DNA from: an uncultured Clostridium sp.
GTDB lineage: Bacteria; Bacillota; Clostridia; TANB77; CAG-508
Length of the DNA: 64,000 bases
Assembly: GCA_930986425.1 (NCBI GenBank)
Contig: CAKNJR010000001.1
Location: 62,001 to 126,000, forward strand
Reading direction: 5' to 3'
Positions 3,173 through 61,545 of this stretch are shown piece after piece. Within the stretch, counting starts at the first letter, position 1, and each line of letters begins with the position of its first letter. Both the position numbers and the translations under genes were made by a program. The notes under the pieces are model-generated. The model was given only the letters and a program-made list of their open reading frames with translations. It was not told the DNA's origin and did no database searches.

Positions 3173-6100
3173 CTATATCCAGTTCCGCTCTGGTGCTAAT
3201 TCTATCGCTGTTACTGTTTCTCCAAATGTACTAGCCCAATTATCAAAATGGTCAAGTCCGTTCTTCTTTAATTCATCATATTGCAAATATCTTTGCATAG
3301 TGTACAACTCTGCCATACTGTTTGAAACTGGTGTTCCTGTCGCAAATACTGTCCCTTTTCCATTTGTAATCTCATCTAAATATCTACATTTCATAAATAA
3401 ATCAGTAGATTTTTGAGCCTCTGTTTGAGCAATACCACCTACATTACGCATTTTAGTATATAAAAATAAGTTTTTGTAGTTATGAGCCTCATCTACGAAT
3501 AGCTTGTCAACTCCTAATTCTTCAAAGGTTACTACATCATCTTTTCTCTCTTGTTTATTTAACTTTTCAAGTCTTGTTTCTAAAGATCTTTTTGTTTTTT
3601 CTAATTGCTTAATTGTATAGTATTCTCCTTTATTAGCTTTTTCTTCAGCAATTCCATTAGTTATATCATTTATTTGTTCTTGTAATATAGTTTTTTGCCT
3701 TTCTACTGACATAGGTATTTTTTCAAATTGACTATGTCCAATGATAATTGCATCATATCCACCTGTGGAAATTCGACTACAAAATTTCTTTCTATTTTTT
3801 GTTTCAAAGTCCTTTTTAGTAGCAACTAAAATATTTGCACTTGGGTATAAATCTAAAAATTCTGATGCAAATTGCTCTATTATATGGTTAGGAACTACAA
3901 AAAGAGATTTATTACATAACCCTAATCTTTTTGACTCCATTGCACTTGCCACCATTTCGTAAGTTTTTCCTGCTCCAACTTCATGAGCTAACAAGACATT
4001 TTTTCCATAAAGTACATGAGCGACAGCATTTAATTGATGAGGTCTTAGTTTCTTTTCTGGATTCATTCCTACAAAATCTATATGTGATCCATCATATTCA
4101 CGAGGTCTTATTGAGTTAAATTTATCATTATAAAGTCTTACTAATTTATTTCTTCTATCTGGATCTTCCCATATCCAATTTAAAAAGGCTTCTTTTATTG
4201 CGTCTTGCTTATTTGAGGCAATAGCTGTTTCTTTTTTGTTTAATACTCTTTGCTTTCTTCCCTCATCATCTATAATAGTGTCAAATACTTTAACATCTTT
4301 TAAATTAAGTGTTTGCTCTATAATTTTATATGCATTTATTCTTGTTGTACCATAAGTAGAATATGCTTTTACATTATCTCTATCTTCACTTTTTCCTTCT
4401 ATGTACCATTCGGAAGTTATATTTGAATATTTAACATGAATGTCCCATCTATTATATCTTGGTGTTTCGAGTAGTTCAAAAATAAATTCTCTAATTACTT
4501 CTGCTGGAATCCATGTAGAGCCTAATTTCACACCTATTTCACTTGCCCCTAAATCCTTAGGTATGACCTCTTTTAATTTTTCTACATTTATATTGAAACT
4601 AGAATCTTCTTTTGCAAATTCTTCTGCTATTTTTAGCTTTTCTCTAACATTACCAGACAAATATTCATCAGCTGTTACCCAATTATTAGGATTACCTCTA
4701 TCTGGAACTCTAAATATAACTCCTTGTAAATTTTCTACAATTTTTTCTATATCTATTCCACATAGATTATGCATATAATCTAAATCAACTTTTGCTTTTT
4801 CTTTTATAGATATAATAAGTGCTTCATATGCTGTATCTACCTTTGTTATTTGTCTTTTAGCCTTTATAGTCCTTTTACTGAACATATCTGCTTTTCCAAC
4901 AAACTTACCTTCTCCGTCTAATTTTTCAAGAGAACATAATAAAAAGAAACTACTATCGTTTGAAAAAGCATTTTCATTAGCTCGTGAATTAATTAATCCA
5001 TATTCTTTAGTAAATCTATTATATAACTCATTTAATTTTGTTTGTGCAATATTTATATACTCATCAGAACGATCTTCTAATTGAAAATCTATTAATTCTC
5101 TAACTTGTTCTCTTAAAGCAATTAATCCTTTTATTCTATTTTGATTAGTTAATGGTAAATTATCTTGCAAATACATTCTCGAATTTTCTCTAAAGTAAAT
5201 CTTATCATCAATAACTGTATACGAGAAATTTTTTACATTTGGACGTGCAGAAATTGAAGTATCTTCCTGCTCTACTTCATTTTCAATAATATAATCTTGT
5301 AATTCTCCATGAATATTACTAATAGCATAATTTAATTGTTCTTTTAATGATATACTATTATCAGCTTTACATGTTGAATCATAGCCATAAGCAGTAGAAA
5401 CAATTTCCATATTTCCTAATACCATTTCTGGATTATCTACAAAATACTTGTTCATTGTAATGTCATTTTCATTTTTATCAAGATATACCCAATCTGGCAT
5501 TATATCTGTTAGACTTTCCCTTTTTTGTAGGAATATAATGTCAGAAGTAACTTTTGTCCCTGCATTTTTTGTAAATGTATTGTCTGGTAACCTTATAGCT
5601 CCTAATAAGTCTGCTCTTTGTGCAATATATTTTCTTACTTCTATATTTTCCTTATCCATAGTACCTTTAGAAGTTATAAAGGCAATAATTCCTCCAGGTC
5701 TAACTTTATCAAGAGTTTTAGCAAAGAAATAATCATGGATTAAAAAATTATTTTTATCATATCTACTATCATTTACTTTAAAATCCCCAAAAGGAACATT
5801 CCCTATTGCAACATCAAAAAATGAGTCTGGTAAATCTGTTTTCTCATATCCTTCCACTCTTATATCTGCTTTTTGATATAACTGTTTTGCAATTCTTCCA
5901 CTTATAGAGTCCAGTTCTATACCATATAAGTTAGAATTTTGTAATGCTTTTGGCAACATGCCTAAAAAATTGCCTGTACCACAACTTGGCTCTAAAATGT
6001 TTGCTTGTTCTAGTCCCATATTTTGTAATGCTTGATATATTGCACTAATAACTACTGGTGGAGTATAGAAAGCTGTTAGTGTAGATGCTCTTGCAGATTC

Positions 6101-8452
6101 ATATTCTTCTGTTGAGAGTAATCCTTTTAGTGTGTTATATTCTTCACTCCAACTAGTTTTCTTTTCATCAAAAACATCTGGTAGTCCACCCCAACCCACA
6201 TAATTGGACAATATTTTTTGTTCATTTTCATTTGCTAGTCTTTTTTCCTCTTCTAACTTCTTTAGTAATCTTATAGCTTCAATATTTCTTGCTACTTTTT
6301 CTTTTGGAGTACCTTCCCCTAAAGAATTATCATCAATATGGTAATTTATTTTTTTTTGTGTTTTATAATATTCTTCTCTATCTAGTGGTTTCCCATTTTC
6401 TTCTCTTGCTTTAAATAAATTTATTACATTTTGTGCTTGCTCAATGTAACTTTCTTTTGTTTCATCTTCTGTTTTTTCATGATTCTCTAAATTATCAATA
6501 AATTCTCGACTAACTTCTTCTAAATCTTTATTTATAAGTTCTTTAATATCTGTAAATTCTGCTAATCTTTTTCTAATATCTGATAAAGTTTGATTTTCTT
6601 CATTATCAGAATATTCTAGTAATCCACCATCTTGTTCTACACCGTATTTATCATATATAGAATAGTAATAGCCTTCTTCGTTTGTATGAAAATGAAAATA
6701 ATTTTCATTAGATAGTTTATAATTTTTCTCAATGTGTTGGGTATTTATTTCTGTTTGATAATCTCTGCTTTCTTTATTTAAGGCTTTATCAAACATCCAT
6801 TTTTCATTTTCATATTCATTTTGTAGCCAGTTTTGATAATCTTCTTTTTCTTCTTTGGTAAAATATTGATCTGATAATATAATTTCTCCAATTCTTTTTT
6901 CTATTGTATTCCAATTAACTTGCAGATTATTTTCAAAACCACTTTTAGAAAGTTTTAAACCTTTGCCTGGTGTATATTCTACCCATATTCCATCAAGACC
7001 TTTTACTCCATTAGTTCCATAATAATTAAATTCTGATTTTAAAAAGTCTATTCTTTCTTTGGAAGAAAATGTTTCTTGATATAATCTATATACTCTAAAT
7101 TTTCCATTTTCATGTCCTGTCCCATCTTTTAATGCTATATCTACCATTTCTTGTGTAAAAGTAAAAGCAGGAGTATTTTCTACTTCTGCTTGTATTTGTA
7201 TAGTATTTCTTTGTTCATCTACACTAGGTAAATCTTTTATTGGTGGTATATAAGAATCTGTAAATAAGTTTAATTGTAAATCAATTCCTGTATCACTATT
7301 TCTTCTGCTTGATTTTTTATTGCGTTCATTTCCTGTACCCAAAGCATTTGATTTTGTGCTTTCAAATTCTCGTCTATCTTGTTCTTCTCTGCTAGGCTCT
7401 TGATTATCTCTTTCAACATTTTCTGTGCTGTCATTTCTATTTCTCCTAAATGTTCCTCCATTTTGCAATCTAGCATTAATTCCTCGTATAGTCCTTTTTT
7501 GTATTCTTTTAGGTATTTCTCTCTCATTCTCGAGAATCTGCCTTGTGGTATTTGTTTGATTTTTGGTAGTGCTACTTGTGGTATCTGGTAATCTCCCATT
7601 TGTTTGTATTCTAACTTCATCATAATCATTTCTCCCTTCATTATTTTTATTTTCATTATTATGATAATTAATTTTTTGATTATTTACAAATGTACGATTT
7701 ATATTTTTTTCAAAATTTCTAACACTTGAAGCAATCTCTCTTATAATTTGTTCTGATATATCGCTCGTGGCTGCACCTAATCTTGATATAACACTTTTAG
7801 TATCAAATTGTTTTATTAATTCAAAATCATTATAGCTAAAATGCTCTAAAGGATCTATTCCACATCTATTTAAAGTCATATATGAAATAGAATTTATCAA
7901 TATACCTTTAAACAATGATTCTAATTCATCTTCACTTAAATTTTGTAAGGAACTATTTTCTAAAACATCTCTTAAATCTACTAAATAATCTTGATAATTA
8001 TCTTCTACTAAGTTCATCGAGCTTGAATAAATAGCTTCAGCCAGATTACTTTTTATCTCTAAATTGCCAAAACTATTTTCTAATGTTTCTATTAGTCCAT
8101 TTTCATAAGAAGATCTTACTTCCCACAATTTTATGTTTCTATTTATACCACTATGTGTATCTGAAATATCAAATACATGCCTTAAGACACTTCTACCATC
8201 TTCAATAGAAATTAGAGCTATACCTTTAGCACCTTTGTTAACCCACCTTTTTAGTCTGTTATTCCATGTTTCTATATCTGCACAAGCAGTTGCATTTGGT
8301 TTTTGAGCATATATTAGCACTTGTTCATTAAAAGAATATTTATAATTATTACTTGCCGTATTTAAAAATTTTGTCCAGTCTTCACCATTTTGTGTGATTT
8401 CTTTTAATGTTTCATTTGCCATTTCATTAACTAACTGATATTTATTAGGCAT
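3173..8452 (-). CDS. N-terminal part of ArdC-like/N6-methylase/SNF2 helicase giant protein (frameshifted)
   Basis: This 1759-residue frame holds most of a mobile-element multidomain protein. The N-terminus (~1-110, WTKFLNTASNNYKYSFNEQ) resembles ArdC-type antirestriction domains, followed by a low-complexity Asn/Arg-rich linker (~265-395). A DNA methylase core has SAM motif I EPSCGTGNF (~826) and GNVPFG (~886, a variant of NPPF). The first helicase lobe has AHEVGAGKT (~1489), FVDEAHN (~1654) and ATGTPVSNS. The frame ends prematurely after LAPERNWI, where relatives continue LAPEGTGYR. The start overlaps the stop of the preceding gene (TGATG). Such proteins are usual in Tn1549-like elements. 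One extra base near 3187 breaks it. Confidence 0.85.
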   Translation of the reverse strand: MPNKYQLVNEMANETLKEITQNGEDWTKFLNTASNNYKYSFNEQVLIYAQKPNATACADIETWNNRLKRWVNKGAKGIALISIEDGRSVLRHVFDISDTHSGINRNIKLWEVRSSYENGLIETLENSFGNLEIKSNLAEAIYSSSMNLVEDNYQDYLVDLRDVLENSSLQNLSEDELESLFKGILINSISYMTLNRCGIDPLEHFSYNDFELIKQFDTKSVISRLGAATSDISEQIIREIASSVRNFEKNINRTFVNNQKINYHNNENKNNEGRNDYDEVRIQTNGRLPDTTSSTTKNQTNTTRQILENEREIPKRIQKRTIRGINARLQNGGTFRRNRNDSTENVERDNQEPSREEQDRREFESTKSNALGTGNERNKKSSRRNSDTGIDLQLNLFTDSYIPPIKDLPSVDEQRNTIQIQAEVENTPAFTFTQEMVDIALKDGTGHENGKFRVYRLYQETFSSKERIDFLKSEFNYYGTNGVKGLDGIWVEYTPGKGLKLSKSGFENNLQVNWNTIEKRIGEIILSDQYFTKEEKEDYQNWLQNEYENEKWMFDKALNKESRDYQTEINTQHIEKNYKLSNENYFHFHTNEEGYYYSIYDKYGVEQDGGLLEYSDNEENQTLSDIRKRLAEFTDIKELINKDLEEVSREFIDNLENHEKTEDETKESYIEQAQNVINLFKAREENGKPLDREEYYKTQKKINYHIDDNSLGEGTPKEKVARNIEAIRLLKKLEEEKRLANENEQKILSNYVGWGGLPDVFDEKKTSWSEEYNTLKGLLSTEEYESARASTLTAFYTPPVVISAIYQALQNMGLEQANILEPSCGTGNFLGMLPKALQNSNLYGIELDSISGRIAKQLYQKADIRVEGYEKTDLPDSFFDVAIGNVPFGDFKVNDSRYDKNNFLIHDYFFAKTLDKVRPGGIIAFITSKGTMDKENIEVRKYIAQRADLLGAIRLPDNTFTKNAGTKVTSDIIFLQKRESLTDIMPDWVYLDKNENDITMNKYFVDNPEMVLGNMEIVSTAYGYDSTCKADNSISLKEQLNYAISNIHGELQDYIIENEVEQEDTSISARPNVKNFSYTVIDDKIYFRENSRMYLQDNLPLTNQNRIKGLIALREQVRELIDFQLEDRSDEYINIAQTKLNELYNRFTKEYGLINSRANENAFSNDSSFFLLCSLEKLDGEGKFVGKADMFSKRTIKAKRQITKVDTAYEALIISIKEKAKVDLDYMHNLCGIDIEKIVENLQGVIFRVPDRGNPNNWVTADEYLSGNVREKLKIAEEFAKEDSSFNINVEKLKEVIPKDLGASEIGVKLGSTWIPAEVIREFIFELLETPRYNRWDIHVKYSNITSEWYIEGKSEDRDNVKAYSTYGTTRINAYKIIEQTLNLKDVKVFDTIIDDEGRKQRVLNKKETAIASNKQDAIKEAFLNWIWEDPDRRNKLVRLYNDKFNSIRPREYDGSHIDFVGMNPEKKLRPHQLNAVAHVLYGKNVLLAHEVGAGKTYEMVASAMESKRLGLCNKSLFVVPNHIIEQFASEFLDLYPSANILVATKKDFETKNRKKFCSRISTGGYDAIIIGHSQFEKIPMSVERQKTILQEQINDITNGIAEEKANKGEYYTIKQLEKTKRSLETRLEKLNKQERKDDVVTFEELGVDKLFVDEAHNYKNLFLYTKMRNVGGIAQTEAQKSTDLFMKCRYLDEITNGKGTVFATGTPVSNSMAELYTMQRYLQYDELKKNGLDHFDNWASTFGETVTAIELAPERNWI
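7270..7623 (-). CDS. TnpV-like transposon protein nested in the helicase gene
   Basis: About 117 residues starting MMKLEYKQMGDYQIPQVALP, with LKEYKKGLYEELMLDCKMEEHL, NQMLWVQEMNAIKNQAEEIV and a final QELIYN. This order of motifs matches TnpV proteins of clostridial transposons, which often read GDYLIP near the N-terminus and EMNNIRNRAEEIV-NKELI near the end. It lies wholly inside the helicase/methylase gene, same strand, different frame, over the part encoding the low-complexity linker. AAGGGAG lies 8 nt before the ATG at 7623, a dedicated ribosome site, so I read it as a genuine overlapping gene. TnpV is transposon-linked with an uncertain role, and an excisionase-like function has been suggested for some. 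In-frame ATGs at 7656 and 7629 are alternatives. Confidence 0.7.
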   Translation of the reverse strand: MMKLEYKQMGDYQIPQVALPKIKQIPQGRFSRMREKYLKEYKKGLYEELMLDCKMEEHLGEIEMTAQKMLKEIIKSLAEKNKIDENLKAQNQMLWVQEMNAIKNQAEEIVIQELIYN

Positions 8453-36097: not shown

Positions 36098-37664
36098 TTA
36101 GCTTGGTCCCATACTATCTATACTTACATTTCCGTGTTCTGGCCAAGACGCATCTGCTGTGCCTGTTGTCTTTTCTAGTTGCTCCACTGTGACTGTAGAC
36201 TTTAGAGAAACTACGGGGCGAACGCCAAGACCGTCGCCATTCCCAATGCCATACGAGTAGAAAAGGTCTCTGCCGCCCGAAAAGACACCGCCGCCGCCCA
36301 CATTGCCAGGACCGAGGCGAGCACCGCTAGAGCCCACAATGACTCCCGGCGAAGCAAGCCAGTATGGCTTTGAGTCATAATCATATGTGTTTTTAAATAT
36401 GGCATTATACATTTCTTGTGTTACTCCTATTTCTGTATTTATGCTACTATCATTTCCTACTGGATAGTAATATGCTGTTCCATTTATTCCCGTTGTATAA
36501 TAGTCAGCTGGTATATCACTTATTTCTTTTAGTCCCAATGCTGTTGCTGGTATTTGGTCTTCTTCCCCTGAACCATTTGAATGTCTATATACATATTTTC
36601 TTCCTAATACTCCATATTCATCATAATTTGTTGTATAACTTGTATCGCTCTTTTTATATACTCCCGCATTTTCTCCTTCTTTTACTACTGTTAACTCTAG
36701 CAAGTTATTTATATCTTCTGCTGTCATACTTCTTGCTTCTTCTGCTAAATCGTTTTTGTATATTGCACTTATGTTATCTAACTCGCCTTCTCCTTGTTCA
36801 TTGTCTGTTGCATAGTATGCTCCTTCTGCTCCATACATGTAATAATAGTAGTCTGTATTCATCTCTGTTATATCATTACTGCTTACAGTATTTGCAGTGT
36901 TAGGATTCTCTGCTAATCCTCTCTTTATAGGACTTGATGTTGTTAGCAATAAATGTTGACTATCTTCACTTAGTCCTAGCACTATCCATTGTGTACTTGA
37001 ATCTACATTAAATATTTGATCTGCTACTCCATTTTTATTTCCATAGCTTATATATTGTCCACTTGTTGGATTTTGATAGTTTACATAGTCTCCTATTTTT
37101 AATTCTCCATCATTAAATGCTTGTACTACTGTTTTTGCTGTACTTTGGCTTGTTCCACTTCCATATCCAAATGCCAACCCTAAATTAATGTCATTTTTTT
37201 CTTCTGTATAATATATTAAATAATAGTCTAATGTGCTTGTTGTATCCGAAGTCACCCCGCTCGCTGTTGCTTCTCTTTGCTCTAATACATATACATCTCC
37301 GTCTGCCATGCTTCCTTTTCCTGTTTGCATGCTTCTTTCCATTAATGTTTCTACGTTCAATGTATTGTCTTCATTTACATATCCATCTGTTTTTAACCTT
37401 GCCAATATTCCTGTTTTGTTTCCTGTCTCTATTGCATCCATCTGGTAATCTGCTACTTTAAATTGTAATTGTTCATACACACTTGCATTTTCGTTTCTTA
37501 CTACTGCATCTTGCGCTCTTGTAAATATTCCGTTGTTACCTATTGTTAAATTAATTGCTACTGCTGCTAGTATTAATAGTACTATTATTGTTACTACTAG
37601 TGCTATTAAGGTTATTCCGTTTTGCTTGTCTTTTTAATCTTTTTAGTGTTCTTTGTTTTTTCAT
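36098..37664 (-). pseudogene. pilin-like variable surface protein 1, frameshifted near its start
   Basis: ATG at 37664 follows TAGGAGGGAG. An extra A in the run of five at 37631-37635 puts the start out of frame; with four A's the gene reads MKKQRTLKRLKDKQNGITLI and on for 521 codons. After the prepilin-type segment (GITLIALVVTIIVLLILA) come a long conserved surface region (~100-430, e.g. YYLIYYTEEKNDINLGLAFG) and a GC-rich C-terminal cassette with PYWLASPG, FYSYG and GVRPVVSL, like DUF6273/C-type-lectin-fold domains. Without the fix only an internal GTG (37480) opens the frame. The stop TAA is at the IS junction. It is a paralogue of genes at 39101-40643 and 59862-61118. Confidence 0.75.
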
Positions 37665-37771: not shown

Positions 37772-37811
37772 AAAAAGCCATGTATTTTAAGTTACCTTAA
37801 AACACATAGCT
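37772..37811 (-). terminator. attenuator terminator upstream of pilin-like gene 1
   Basis: Sixteen-base-pair stem (two G-U) from AGCTATGTGTTTTAAG to CTTAAAATACATGGCT with loop GTAA, then TTTT. It lies 30 nt after the leader ORF stop and 108 nt before the pilin ATG. The loop contains the stop TAA of the alternative leader frame (37792-37794). Confidence 0.8.
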
Positions 37812-37841
37812 TCTTTACATCTATGTTTATTATTTTAGTTA

Positions 37842-37901
37842 TTAAATTACATGTGTGTGTGTGTGTGTGTGTACAGCCTCAAGGCTTACAGCGTTTTTCA
37901 T
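37842..37901 (-). CDS. leader peptide ORF with (CA)10 repeat, pilin-like gene 1
   Basis: 19 codons, MKNAVSLEAVHTHTHTHVI, with AGGAAAA before the ATG at 37901. The second half is a CA dinucleotide tract (37851-37873 with flanks), encoding alternating His-Thr. Two paralogous leaders share A-(E/V)-(T/S)-L-(E/G)-A-V followed by a dinucleotide tract. In this copy n=10 puts translation in the frame that stops at 37842, before the terminator; with 9 or 12 repeats the frame runs to a stop in the terminator loop. Function inferred: translation-coupled attenuation with slippage-driven phase variation. Not a family I recognise. Confidence 0.7.
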   Translation of the reverse strand: MKNAVSLEAVHTHTHTHVI

Positions 37902-37948: not shown

Positions 37949-37977
37949 ATTTTACATTTATTTACATTTTATGTCAA
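37949..37977 (-). promoter_or_regulatory. promoter for leader/pilin-like gene 1
   Basis: Minus strand TTGACA (37972-37977), 17-nt spacer, TAAAAT (37949-37954). It starts transcription just before the leader ORF at 37901. The same TTGAC-type/TAAAAT layout is found at the other two pilin leaders. Confidence 0.7.
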
Positions 37978-39251: not shown

Positions 39252-40643
39252 TCAGCGCCATACGAGTAGAAAATGTGGCTGTGGCCCGAATAGACACAAC
39301 CGTTGTACACAAAGCCAGTATGTCTTTGAGTCATAAACTGCTGTGTCTTTAAATATGGCATTGTACATTTCCTGTGTTACTCCTATTTCTGTATTTATGT
39401 TGCTACTACTACTTCCTACATAATATCCGTATGCTGTTCCATTTATTCCTGCCTCATAATAGTCAGTTGGTATTTCACTTATTTCTTTTAGTCCCAATGA
39501 TGTTTCTGGTATTTGGTCTTCTTCTCCATAAATATTTGAATGTCTATATACATATGTTTCACCTAATACTCCACCATTATCATAATTAGTTGTATAACTC
39601 GTGTCACTCTTTTTATATACTCCTGCATTTGATCCTTCATATACAACTGTTAAATCTAGCAAGTTATTTATATCTTCTGCTGTCATACTTCTTGCTTCTT
39701 CTGCTAAATCATTTTTATATATTGCACTTATGTTATCTAACTCGCCTTCTCCTTGCTCATTATCTGTTGCATAGTATGCTCCTTCTGCTCCATACATGTA
39801 ATAATAATAGTCTTTGTTCATTTCTGTTATGTCGTTACTATCTACTCCATTTTCTCCATATGGATTTTGTGCGGTTCCTCTCTTTATAGGACTTGATGTT
39901 GTTAGTAATAAATGCTGACCATCTTCACTTAGTCCTAACACTATCCATTGTGTTGTTTGGTCTACACTAAAATGTTGGTCTGCTACTCCATTCTTATTTG
40001 CATAGCTTATATAATCTCCGCTTGTTGGATTTTGGTAATTTACATAGTCTCCTATTTTTAATTCTCCATCTTTGAATGCTTGTACTACTGTTTTTGCTGT
40101 ACTTTGGCTTGTTCCACTTCCATATCCAAATGCCAACCCTAAATTAATGTCATTTTTTTCTTCTGTATAATATATTAAATAATAATCCATTTCTGATGAT
40201 GAGTCTGATACTGTTGATGTCGCTGTTCTTTGTCTTTGCTCTATTACATATACATCTCCTGTTTCTATTGTTCCTTTTCCTGTTTGCATGCTTCTTCCCA
40301 TTAAGCTTGTTACATTCAATATATTTGCACCATTTATCTCACTTACATGCCCATCTGCTTTTAATCTATCTAATATTGCTTCGTTCCTTCCTGTTTCTAT
40401 ATTATCCATAAAATAATCTGCTACTACCATTTGTAACTGCTCATATACACTCGCATTTTCATATTTTACTGTTGCGTCTTGCGCTCTTGTAAATATTCCG
40501 TTATTTCCTATTGTCAAGCTTATTGCTACTCCTGCTAGTATTAATAGTACTATTATGGTTACTACTAATGCTATTAATGTTATACCTTTTACATTCCTTT
40601 TTAATTGTTTTAGTAATTTACTTTTATTCTTCTCTTTCTTCAT
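39252..40643 (-). CDS. pilin-like variable surface protein 2, truncated by a deletion in its cassette
   Basis: 463 residues; AAGGAGG precedes the ATG at 40643. N-terminal prepilin segment KGITLIALVVTIIVLLILAG; the family hallmark Glu at mature position 5 is replaced by Ala. The rest closely parallels paralogue 1 (YYLIYYTEEKNDINLGLAFG, SAIYKNDLAEEARSMTAEDI). It diverges after DSKTYWL, where the frame reads CVQRLCLFGPQPHFLLVWR and stops, because 53 nt of the GC-rich cassette are missing. Thus the lectin-like end is lost in this assembly. Likely exported and membrane- or fibre-associated like type IV pseudopilins; role unknown. Confidence 0.8.
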   Translation of the reverse strand: MKKEKNKSKLLKQLKRNVKGITLIALVVTIIVLLILAGVAISLTIGNNGIFTRAQDATVKYENASVYEQLQMVVADYFMDNIETGRNEAILDRLKADGHVSEINGANILNVTSLMGRSMQTGKGTIETGDVYVIEQRQRTATSTVSDSSSEMDYYLIYYTEEKNDINLGLAFGYGSGTSQSTAKTVVQAFKDGELKIGDYVNYQNPTSGDYISYANKNGVADQHFSVDQTTQWIVLGLSEDGQHLLLTTSSPIKRGTAQNPYGENGVDSNDITEMNKDYYYYMYGAEGAYYATDNEQGEGELDNISAIYKNDLAEEARSMTAEDINNLLDLTVVYEGSNAGVYKKSDTSYTTNYDNGGVLGETYVYRHSNIYGEEDQIPETSLGLKEISEIPTDYYEAGINGTAYGYYVGSSSSNINTEIGVTQEMYNAIFKDTAVYDSKTYWLCVQRLCLFGPQPHFLLVWR

Positions 40644-40699: not shown

Positions 40700-40751
40700 A
40701 AAAAACTATGCCTCATATACGAATTTTAAATTCGCATAAAAAGCATAGTTT
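40700..40751 (-). terminator. attenuator terminator upstream of pilin-like gene 2
   Basis: Outer stem AAACTATGC / GCATAGTTT, an inner hairpin, and TTTTTT. Leader stop to hairpin is 29 nt, terminator to pilin ATG is 56 nt. The alternative leader frame stops at 40726-40728 inside the loop. Confidence 0.8.
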
Positions 40752-40780
40752 CTCCACTACGTTTACATAAGTTTATTTTG

Positions 40781-40837
40781 TTAAATCCTACGATATATAT
40801 ATATATATACAGCCTCAAGGGTTTCAGCGATTGCCAT
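40781..40837 (-). CDS. leader peptide ORF with (TA)n repeat, pilin-like gene 2
   Basis: 18 codons, MAIAETLEAVYIYIYRRI, with AAAGGAG 9 bases before the ATG at 40837. The TA tract (40793-40809) encodes Tyr-Ile. One extra TA unit or two fewer would carry the frame past this stop to TAA in the terminator loop. The N-terminal core is nearly identical to the third copy (61393-61446). See 37842-37901 for the shared design. Confidence 0.7.
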   Translation of the reverse strand: MAIAETLEAVYIYIYRRI

Positions 40838-40868: not shown

Positions 40869-40898
40869 ATTTTAGCATAACATATATTGAATTTGCAA
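40869..40898 (-). promoter_or_regulatory. promoter for leader/pilin-like gene 2
   Basis: Minus strand TTGCAA (40893-40898), 18-nt spacer, TAAAAT (40869-40874). Slightly weaker than the other two pilin promoters. Confidence 0.55.
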
Positions 40899-46042: not shown

Positions 46043-46311
46043 TTTTACCTTCCTTTCTGGATACAAAAACGAACTATTTGCCCATAGGACGAATAGTTCG
46101 TTGTACCACCTAATTTTATTAATTTATATAATAAACTAACCTCTATAGTTTTAACGGTGCAACCGCTTTCCCTACTACTATATTCAGAAAAGAATCTCAA
46201 AAGTGAAATTTCAGTAAATACCATATGGCGTTTCTCAGCTTTCCGCCTCTCTGTAATATGTTTTCTATTTACCTACTTTGCTTTTTCTTAGATTTTATTT
46301 CTATTAAAACT
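46043..46311 (-). promoter_or_regulatory. T-box leader for pheST (tRNA-Phe)
   Basis: Minus strand has the T-box ATTAGGTGGTACAA (46101-46115) then the terminator stem AACGAACTATTCGTC ... AAATAGTTCGTT with TTTTT (46072-46103). Stem I carries AGAGAGGCGGAAAGCTGAG. The specifier, read as TTC (46205-46207) followed by A and CTT, codes for Phe. The parallel position in the ileS leader reads ATC followed by A and CTT. Uncharged tRNA-Phe would stabilise the antiterminator and allow pheST transcription. Confidence 0.85.
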
Positions 46312-55965: not shown

Positions 55966-56292
55966 AATTACCTCCTTGAATTTGTGGGTGCTATTATTTT
56001 TTATTGAATAGGAAAAACTTGATTTTTCCTATTCAATAAAAAGACTTCATCCTTTTAGGACGAAGTCTTTCCGCGGTACCACCTAATTTAAAAGAATTTA
56101 TATTATTTCTTATTCTTTTCTCTCTAATATCTTTAACGCAGATTTACGGCTTAAACTAATAACAACCGCTTTCGTCTAAGCAACATATAAGTGATAATAA
56201 ATAAATAGTTTCTTACTAGCATCTCACCACCACTAGCTCTCTATAAAGGCTTGTTTATTTACCGTGTCTTATATATAGTTTTTATATATGAT
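55966..56292 (-). promoter_or_regulatory. T-box leader for ileS (tRNA-Ile)
   Basis: Minus strand TTAGGTGGTACCGCGG (canonical T-box, ~56071-56088), followed by terminator AAAGACTTCGTCC ... AGTCTTTTT (56038-56071). Stem I begins near AGAGAGCTAGTGG. The specifier reads ATC (56193-56195) followed by A and CTT, coding Ile. An extra perfect 17-bp hairpin at 56001-56039 lies between the terminator and ileS. Confidence 0.9.
56001..56039. repeat. perfect 17-bp inverted repeat between the T-box terminator and ileS
   Basis: TTATTGAATAGGAAAAA and TTTTTCCTATTCAATAA with loop CTTGA. It partly overlaps the A-run of the terminator. Not followed by U's on the minus strand, so not an ordinary terminator for ileS. 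Confidence 0.6.
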
Positions 56293-59861: not shown

Positions 59862-61118
59862 TTACTCTTTTGGCACTTGCTGTATTGTGACTCCAGATTC
59901 TAGAGAAACTACGGAACGCACGCAGGCACCGACATCACGCTCGTTACCGTCCGAGTAGAAGAAGGCGCCAGCGCTAGACACAAGGCCAAAACCCTCACCA
60001 GCCTCAACCGCTCCGGGACCGAAGTCCGCATAGCTAGAGCCCGAAACGACCCCACGAGATGAAAGGAAGCATATTGGCATTTGCGAACTTTCGCTACTAA
60101 ATATTAATTCATACTCTGTTTGGTTATCTGCTATTTTGTATGGCATTCCTACTTCTCCCATATCTTGTGGCGCTACTGCGTAGTAATATCCATCTACTGT
60201 TCCTGTTATTGTTCCTGCTCTTGTTCCCTCTGGTTCACCTGCATTTTTCTCAGCCAAATAACTTTCTGGCGTATACGCATTATCATATGAATATGTTTCT
60301 CCGTAATCTGCTCCTTCCGAGTCATTTTGTAATGAATAGATATCATATTCTCCTATCTCGCTGTTTGCCATATGGAATAATTCGTTCATATCTTCTACTT
60401 TCATACTTCTTGCTTCTTCTACATATTGCATATTTTCAAATAATTCTTTACTTATTTGGTCTGGTACTAAGTAGCCTGTCTCGTAACTTTGAGCTCCATA
60501 CATATATAGCAATCCATCTGCATTATCTGACTCCAATGGTGTTTCCATTATTAGCTTTATTCCACCTGTTTCACTATCTATTCCTAGTACTCTCCATCTT
60601 ATATTATTATTTTTTGTGCTACTTATTGTATATGTTTGGTTTGAACTATATCCTGTTAGAGCTGAAGTTGCTACATCTGATGAGGCACTTGTTGGTGTAT
60701 TTAATTGTAAATAGTCTCCTACGTGCAAATGATTTTCTGGGTCTGAACAACTTGTTCCATCACATCCATCTGCCTCTGCATTTAAGAACATTCTTACTAA
60801 TGTTCCTTCTGCTGGCACTTCTGTTCCTCCGTTTCCTTCCAAATAACCTGCCATCCAATCTTCTAGTTCGCCCATTGCTAACTGTTCATTACTTTCTGCG
60901 TTTCGCCACGTATTTGCTGCTGTTTGCGCTCTACTAAATATTCCATTTTGTCCTATTGTTAAGTTAAGTGCTATTCCCGCTAATATCAAAAGGACTATTA
61001 TTGTTACTACTAACGCTATTAATGTAATTCCTTTTACTCCTTTTGCTACTTTGTGCACTGTAAGTTTTGTACGTTTTTTTGAGCTTTCATCATTAATGTT
61101 TAAACTTTTATTTTCCAT
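59862..61118 (-). CDS. pilin-like variable surface protein 3 (intact)
   Basis: 418 residues; AGGGGAG precedes the ATG. A basic leader (KKRTKLTVHKVAKGVK) then GITLIALVVTIIVLLILAG, prepilin-like but Ala at mature position 5 instead of Glu. The middle has NTPTSASSDV and YTISSTKNNNIRWRVLGIDSE, parallel to NYQNPTSG and WIVLGLSED of the other two. The C-terminus SSRGVVSGSSYADFGPGAV and FFYSDG with CVRSVVSLES is the GC-rich cassette. It is the only unbroken one of three paralogues, and its leader is the same type (61393-61446). Confidence 0.85.
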   Translation of the reverse strand: MENKSLNINDESSKKRTKLTVHKVAKGVKGITLIALVVTIIVLLILAGIALNLTIGQNGIFSRAQTAANTWRNAESNEQLAMGELEDWMAGYLEGNGGTEVPAEGTLVRMFLNAEADGCDGTSCSDPENHLHVGDYLQLNTPTSASSDVATSALTGYSSNQTYTISSTKNNNIRWRVLGIDSETGGIKLIMETPLESDNADGLLYMYGAQSYETGYLVPDQISKELFENMQYVEEARSMKVEDMNELFHMANSEIGEYDIYSLQNDSEGADYGETYSYDNAYTPESYLAEKNAGEPEGTRAGTITGTVDGYYYAVAPQDMGEVGMPYKIADNQTEYELIFSSESSQMPICFLSSRGVVSGSSYADFGPGAVEAGEGFGLVSSAGAFFYSDGNERDVGACVRSVVSLESGVTIQQVPKE

Positions 61119-61305: not shown

Positions 61306-61357
61306 AAAAAACTATGCTAATTAGACAATTTTAAATACGTCTAAAAAGCATAGTTTT
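61306..61357 (-). terminator. attenuator terminator upstream of pilin-like gene 3
   Basis: Outer stem AAAACTATGC / GCATAGTTTT, inner stem TAGAC / GTCTA, then TTTTTT. It lies 35 nt after the leader stop, 187 nt before the pilin ATG. The alternative leader frame stops at 61331-61333 within the loop region. Confidence 0.8.
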
Positions 61358-61392
61358 ATCTCTATGTTTACTTAAATATATTTGGTTAAATC

Positions 61393-61446
61393 TTACAATA
61401 TATATATATATATATATACAGCCCCAAGGGTTTCAGCGATTTTCAT
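61393..61446 (-). CDS. leader peptide ORF with (TA)9 repeat, pilin-like gene 3
   Basis: 17 codons, MKIAETLGAVYIYIYIL, with AAGGAAG upstream of ATG at 61446. The TA tract (61398-61419) ends in TTG TAA. Removing one TA or adding two would join the frame VRFNQIYL...TMLFRRI ending in the terminator loop; adding one gives another short frame. Core IAETLxAVYIYIYI is nearly identical to the copy at 40781-40837. Confidence 0.7.
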   Translation of the reverse strand: MKIAETLGAVYIYIYIL

Positions 61447-61516: not shown

Positions 61517-61545
61517 ATTTTACACTTACGCCTATTTTTAGTCAA
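61517..61545 (-). promoter_or_regulatory. promoter for leader/pilin-like gene 3
   Basis: Minus strand TTGACT (61540-61545), 17-nt spacer, TAAAAT (61517-61522). Confidence 0.7.

Follow-up and report, generated by a model that had tools for sequence, protein, structure and literature searches.

Each of the three type IV pilin-like genes in the window, the 64,000-nucleotide stretch of DNA analysed here, is preceded by a leader that very probably acts as a phase-variable, translation-coupled attenuator, and leaders of the same family stand before further pilin-like and other surface genes; the direction assigned to the ON state is an inference. The number of repeat units sets the reading frame of the leader, such that two of the three frames stop upstream of a terminator-like hairpin and the third enters it. 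Replication slippage would alter the unit number. In the long frame the ribosome would occupy the hairpin while RNA polymerase passes, and the gene would be transcribed (ON), and in the short frames early release of the ribosome would allow the hairpin to form and transcription to stop (OFF). This mechanism, put forward in the original prediction, stands as a predicted one that is well supported by comparison, namely by the open frame, its register with the hairpin, the presence of three repeat types in one place, variation in tract length and peptides of the other phase. The three copies that had been recognized are the full number for the window, but not for the source genome, in which the family comprises 22 leaders. 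With 22 leaders in one genome, a population would show shifting mixtures of surface proteins.

Leader organization in the window

All three leaders lie on the minus strand and have the same order of elements.

37949..37977, minus strand: copy 1 promoter-like site, TTGACA-17-TAAAAT (11/12 consensus matches, consensus only)
37842..37901, minus strand: copy 1 leader ORF, in the short frame as sequenced, reading MKNAVSLEAVHTHTHTHVI
37852..37872, minus strand: copy 1 dinucleotide tract, 21 nt of AC/CA
37792..37851, minus strand: copy 1 long-frame extension beyond the tract, with TAA at 37792-37794 in the hairpin loop
37772..37815, minus strand: copy 1 terminator-like hairpin, 20 pairs, loop of 4 (-24.2 kcal/mol, z -8.5)
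40869..40898, minus strand: copy 2 promoter-like site, TTGCAA-18-TAAAAT (9/12, consensus only)
40781..40837, minus strand: copy 2 leader ORF, reading MAIAETLEAVYIYIYRRI
40793..40809, minus strand: copy 2 TA tract, 17 nt
40726..40792, minus strand: copy 2 long-frame extension beyond the tract, with TAA at 40726-40728 as the hairpin loop
40700..40754, minus strand: copy 2 terminator-like hairpin (-27.9 kcal/mol, z -8.0)
61517..61545, minus strand: copy 3 promoter-like site, TTGACT-17-TAAAAT (10/12, consensus only)
61393..61446, minus strand: copy 3 leader ORF, reading MKIAETLGAVYIYIYIL (P0191 is a long-frame database peptide with the same flanks)
61398..61418, minus strand: copy 3 TA tract, 21 nt (17 nt in L092)
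61331..61397, minus strand: copy 3 long-frame extension beyond the tract, with TAA at 61331-61333 in the loop
61308..61357, minus strand: copy 3 terminator-like hairpin (-21.0 kcal/mol, z -7.3)

The leader ORFs, tracts and stops lie exactly where they had been placed for all three copies, and the three long-frame stops fall inside predicted hairpin loops as proposed. The unit rules were reproduced by a script, copy 1 opening with -1 or +2 units, copy 2 with +1 or -2 and copy 3 with -1 or +2; under these scripted unit changes the long frame of each copy opens at a total tract of 13, 19 or 25 nt. None of 200 shuffles matched the folding energy of any of the window hairpins. A terminator scan of the three window stretches (loop 3-8, 5 T in 8 bases after the stem) found none; our guess is that it missed these hairpins through T runs that pair into long or bulged stems. 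Each leader has its promoter-like site upstream on the same strand, at a match frequency not above that of shuffles, and no same-strand promoter-like site was found between hairpin and gene in the scanned stretches of the three copies. As in pil1 of Streptococcus gallolyticus (see below), a short leader ORF with a ribosome site follows the promoter in the window copies. A known RNA family was ruled out by the lack of any Rfam leader match at the gathering score; the only Rfam leaders in the window are two T-box leaders elsewhere, at 46082-46298 and 56053-56285 on the minus strand.

Copies were collected with regular expressions that join a conserved N-terminal core to a TA, CA or GA tract, so that other repeat types would be missed, and a copy was counted only if an ATG lay in frame 12 to 30 nt ahead of the anchor. 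The core pattern gave three matches in the window, compared with none in 100 shuffles, and 19 matches across the source genome with no control hits. A covariance model built from 58 copies recognized the 22 leaders of the source genome, 21 of them with a repeat. Alignment A1 consists of 58 of the 100 main-family rows; as these were picked by hand and omit window copy 1, the register count was redone on all 148 copies, setting aside the 27 without the arm motif.

Conservation of the open frame

Alignment with homologues, suggested in the original prediction as a check on the open alternative frame, came out in its favour: one frame remains open for at least 18 codons beyond the tract in 139 of 148 unique copies, the other nine having no open frame. 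The remaining frames are usually shut within five codons, upstream of the hairpin. Exactly one frame is open for 18 codons in 121 of 132 unique copies that have an ATG, and any such frame is seen in 32 % of shuffles; taking 6 nt before the tract end as the starting point, one frame reaches at least 19 codons in 124 of these 132, and the median open lengths of their three frames are 23, 5 and 2 codons. A hairpin with a T run follows in 123 of 130 copies and is missing in seven. Among these 123, both short-frame stops lie upstream of the hairpin in 120, and the long-frame stop lies within it in 106 (5' arm 12, loop 43, 3' arm 51), beyond it in 16 and before it in one.

Measured from the tract to the hairpin arm, the spacing belongs to a single class modulo 3 in 105 of 121 copies, and the distance from arm to arm is spread over the classes (51/43/22 of 116). 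Nearly all off-register copies (15 of 16, the exception being L090 with 14) still read at least 19 codons, retaining an open frame with a different sequence. Compensatory changes are present in the hairpin.

Sums of change by codon position in the long frame come to 2.16, 2.02 and 2.01, with no excess at the third position, so that the amino acids look free and ribosome passage appears to be what is kept. This lack of codon-position bias rules out a conserved leader peptide, and it bears on the view that the long peptide is a functional small protein or an arrest peptide that is phase-varied by the repeat. That view could draw on the protein database, in which a 41-residue long-frame leader query of the TA type matches 254 predicted small proteins at E<=0.01 and a (GA)-type long-leader query matches 16, but a second genus carries a different C-terminal half and the off-register copies keep a frame open with other residues; we regard it as extremely improbable.

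Within the main family, openness alone is weak evidence, since independent resampling of columns leaves 70 % of sequences free of stops compared with the 56 of 58 observed, and it is due partly to composition and descent. The copies are related and come partly from the same genomes, so the counts are not independent trials. The genus of G150 is the better witness to frame-keeping. Eleven of the 12 copies in this genome (some of which are also among the 148) follow the same logic with another hairpin and another peptide, the long frame running for 31 to 40 codons through a different C-terminal half to a stop about 10 nt past the hairpin; L267 is the copy that fails, and 4 of the 12 are in the long frame.

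Two further readings place the control in the RNA or in the codons of the leader. In the first, the signs of the switch are reversed: ACRTAG, left free in the short frames, would pair with CTATG of the 5' arm as an antiterminator, and ON and OFF would be exchanged. Five of these pairs each form in 56 to 58 of the 58 aligned copies when G-U is allowed, but the sixth forms in only 25; as the pairs hardly vary, covariation says nothing about them. The pairing is absent from the minimum-free-energy folds of the three window copies together with their flank, in which the hairpin wins at -21 to -28.6 kcal/mol, and on this ground an antiterminator was rejected as the main device. A pause site would be an equally good reading of such a small hairpin, which lies ahead of U residues, and the reversed switch is judged very unlikely. 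In copy 3, ACRTAG lies at 61362-61367 on the minus strand (columns 35-40 of A1), a possible pause or alternative hairpin.

In the second, the leader would sense amino acids in the manner of trp, the ribosome stalling at Tyr or Ile codons of the repeat when charged tRNA is scarce. The (TA) repeat does give Tyr-Ile codons in every frame, but the same place reads His-Thr in (CA) copies and Glu-Arg in (GA) copies, and the best folds of the three window copies contain no antiterminator. Because Tyr-Ile, His-Thr and Glu-Arg interchange where control codons for a single amino acid are expected, this type of attenuator was rejected and is given next to no probability. A terminator that is masked by the ribosome in the long frame remains the preferred reading.

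Repeat length and predicted phase

The (TA), (CA) and (GA) repeats occupy the same place in the leader, (TA) in 139 of the 148 copies and the CA or GA kind in nine. As in pil1, a tandem repeat in the leader sets the frame by its unit number, the unit being 2 nt instead of 5. Of 85 pairs whose flanks are at least 80 % identical, 45 have tracts of unequal length; an example is window copy 3 with L092, whose tracts differ by 4 nt within flanks that are 97.6 % identical. Only 20 of 139 copies have a tract length that selects the long frame, where chance would give one third, and in the source genome only one of the 21 tract copies does. Tracts of 19 nt were counted 10 times, compared with 26 for 17 nt and 71 for 21 nt. 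Were the repeats passive microsatellites that sit in a conserved 5' region and leave the downstream gene unaffected, the variation in length would be accounted for, but not the frame-keeping relative to the hairpin, the fixed place of three repeat types or the scarcity of 19-nt tracts; this is very unlikely to be the explanation.

Peptides of the other phase were sought among the database matches, of which 120 of the 254 were listed and entered the flank comparison. Among the matches listed, six pairs of peptides match exactly except for the length of the repeat, and at least 23 of the 148 genome copies have a database peptide identical on both flanks, although these are matches at the protein level that may partly be paralogues. 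Of the 23 copies with such a long-frame peptide, 20 are OFF as assembled, window copy 3 (P0191) included, and the other phase of these copies thus appears to exist elsewhere. Varying repeat number and both phases, as known for pil1, are found here between assemblies, with the database peptides counting at the protein level. P0184, a long-frame peptide whose flanks are those of L007, lies on a contig 81,236 bases long, and the contig of L007 itself (C6) has 81,238; the two may be assemblies of one strain in different phases.

One leader of the source genome, L015, lacks a repeat and is in the long frame. In the sub-family of L015, L178 and L076, (GA)n or a non-repeat stretch replaces (TA)n, the long-frame peptide is longer and different, and the long frame is the one assembled.

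Distribution of the family

Within the genus, 17 of 31 genomes have matches, with 1 to 34 per genome; the 14 without have a completeness of 69 to 93 %. Across the order, hits to a looser pattern occur in 22 of 287 genomes, spread over 11 of 45 genera. Hits outside the genus are mostly one or two per genome with this looser pattern. Of those inspected, some (L246, L248, L260 and L262) resemble the leader family, and others (L245, L249, L252, L261, L263 and L276) are missing the start, the hairpin or the long frame; G150, of another genus, has its 12 copies. At least 108 stretches of genome_contigs match, and the 80 listed belong to metagenome bins of uncultured Clostridia or Clostridium and one Bacilli bin. 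A search of viral_contigs gave no exact core match, so a viral home of the core is unsupported.

Genes behind the leaders

Two groups account for the genes behind the leaders apart from a minority of others, one encoding type IV pilin-like proteins (GITLIALVVTIIVLLILAG) and one encoding proteins that have a membrane anchor at the N terminus. A prepilin peptidase and T2SSE-type ATPases are present in the source genome. In the window the genes are as follows.

36098..37664, minus strand: copy 1 type IV pilin-like gene, ATG at 37664, N_methyl match just below the cut-off
39252..40643, minus strand: copy 2 pilin-like gene, frame broken by an indel near the C terminus, N_methyl below the cut-off
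59862..61118, minus strand: copy 3 pilin-like gene, N_methyl below the cut-off

The copy 1 gene is not open from its ATG owing to a single extra C at 37619 (CGG 37617-37619), which precedes the Gly codon of the prepilin cleavage site. Its GC-rich C-terminal stretch (36203-36364, minus strand) diverges strongly among otherwise similar pilins, in the way of a retroelement variable repeat; a search of this assembly for a template repeat returned only copies 1 and 2. In the copy 2 gene, a deletion relative to P0002 breaks the frame in the C-terminal variable stretch (39252-39332, minus strand), and this gene may be a broken display gene. The CGG at 39302 was considered as a +1 site like that of copy 1 and rejected on the evidence of that deletion.

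Leaders also occur at diversity-generating retroelements. In L064 (838-4693, minus strand), one leader stands before a hypermutated target gene of 420 residues and a second before genes for MutS domain I, bAvd and reverse transcriptase. Comparison of template with target shows 21 mismatches over 142 positions, and at 19 of these the template has A. In another genome, L097 contains both leaders, the target and the MutS-like gene, and the Avd gene is seen in L020, the reverse transcriptase lying beyond the stretches read. A leader also precedes a MutS-like gene in L142. In L020 and L064, the hairpin that precedes the retroelement operon lacks a distinct T run, which makes termination there doubtful. 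It is possible, though we put it forward tentatively, that a genome-wide bank of independent frame-slip attenuators (22 here and up to 34 in a relative) runs much of the surface and also gates the retroelement target and the mutation machinery. If so, phase variation would extend both to the protein on display and to the mutation machinery of MutS-like, Avd and reverse transcriptase genes, and the retroelement copies would tie phase variation to targeted hypermutation.

Comparison with described switches

In pyrBI attenuation of Escherichia coli, the leader ORF overlaps the terminator, and a ribosome that follows RNA polymerase closely along this ORF keeps the terminator from acting; pyrBI answers to UTP through pausing, whereas in the present leaders it would be the number of repeats in the DNA that varies. 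In simple-sequence-repeat phase variation of coding regions, as in the opa genes of Neisseria, slippage in short repeats changes the reading frame and so switches surface proteins. There the repeat lies inside the gene itself, whereas here it lies in a separate leader, so that the surface protein's own sequence is untouched.

The original prediction knew of no described switch of this kind, and on this point it has to be corrected, as the pil1 and pil3 switches of S. gallolyticus had already been described (Danne et al. 2014, PMC3894217) and the kind is therefore known. In that account, out-of-frame changes in GCAGA repeats lengthen the leader peptide into a premature terminator and pil1 transcription rises; the logic was tested genetically for pil1, and pil3 has the same design (PMC3894217). 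The systems are alike, as far as described there, in having a leader ORF with a ribosome site, internal tandem repeats, a premature stem-loop terminator (a predicted one in the present leaders) and pilus genes, and in that the lengthened leader stops in or near the hairpin; the majority of S. gallolyticus cells are low expressers, and the long frame is likewise scarce here. They differ in the repeat, a GCAGA pentanucleotide of 22 and 13 units compared with dinucleotides here, in number, two loci compared with 22 in the source genome, and in the pili, which are of the LPXTG/sortase type in S. gallolyticus, in contrast to the type IV pilin-like and other surface genes here. The host there is a Streptococcus, whereas the relatives found here are named as Clostridia. 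A pilus switch of Bifidobacterium breve (PMC9187656) is similar in that replication slippage turns pilus expression ON and OFF.

Among the titles and abstract openings searched, mostly of non-subscription literature, nothing beyond Danne et al. and a review citing it was recognized as such a switch in Clostridia, with dinucleotides or with retroelements. The novelty lies in the dinucleotide repeats, in a repertoire that spans the genome, in a bacterial class and a type of pilus other than those described, and in the copies before a diversity-generating retroelement. A mechanism taken from two Streptococcus pilus loci would become a repertoire-scale system in uncultured bacteria. Repeat length modulo 3 in metagenome reads gives the predicted phase of each locus, so that the ON/OFF state of 20 or more surface genes could be measured in a population without culturing, and the scarce ON tracts offer a handle on selection from sequence alone.

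Breaks at CGG codons

The extra C in the copy 1 pilin gene belongs to a candidate conserved +1 frameshift at CGG, in which the +1 frame continues with GGA or GGT (Gly). Sites of this type are 37617-37619 (minus strand, copy 1 pilin), 3185-3187 (minus strand, in the helicase ORF 3173-8452), L242 and 13 prepilin genes in the fetched loci. Of 50 unique prepilin motifs in these loci, 14 have no in-frame start; 13 of these 14 have AAR-CGG at the site, and in every one of the 13 an ATG lies in the frame that leads into it. A C precedes GG in one of the 36 in-frame prepilin motifs.

CGG is the rarest Arg codon, at 2 of 18,590 codons, and the 30 tRNAs found, a list that also lacks other tRNAs, include none with the anticodon CCG. 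Surveys of the Shulgina type report CGG as reassigned or without a tRNA in other low-GC clades (PMC8629427), and searches for a described CGG +1 frameshift of this kind returned no such case. Nine CGG codons were seen in long frames of the source genome, some of which may be antisense; three have a +1 continuation, one of them the copy 2 indel, and in the other six none was seen.

The helicase gene of the window and the reverse transcriptase of the source genome's retroelement break at CGG in the same sense. The two helicase pieces are adjacent in one frame in five of the seven plasmid-collection records listed in the searches with both pieces, and in the remaining two their best places are apart. 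The reverse transcriptase breaks at ATA-CGG-TAA, upstream of the GNYSSQ motif.
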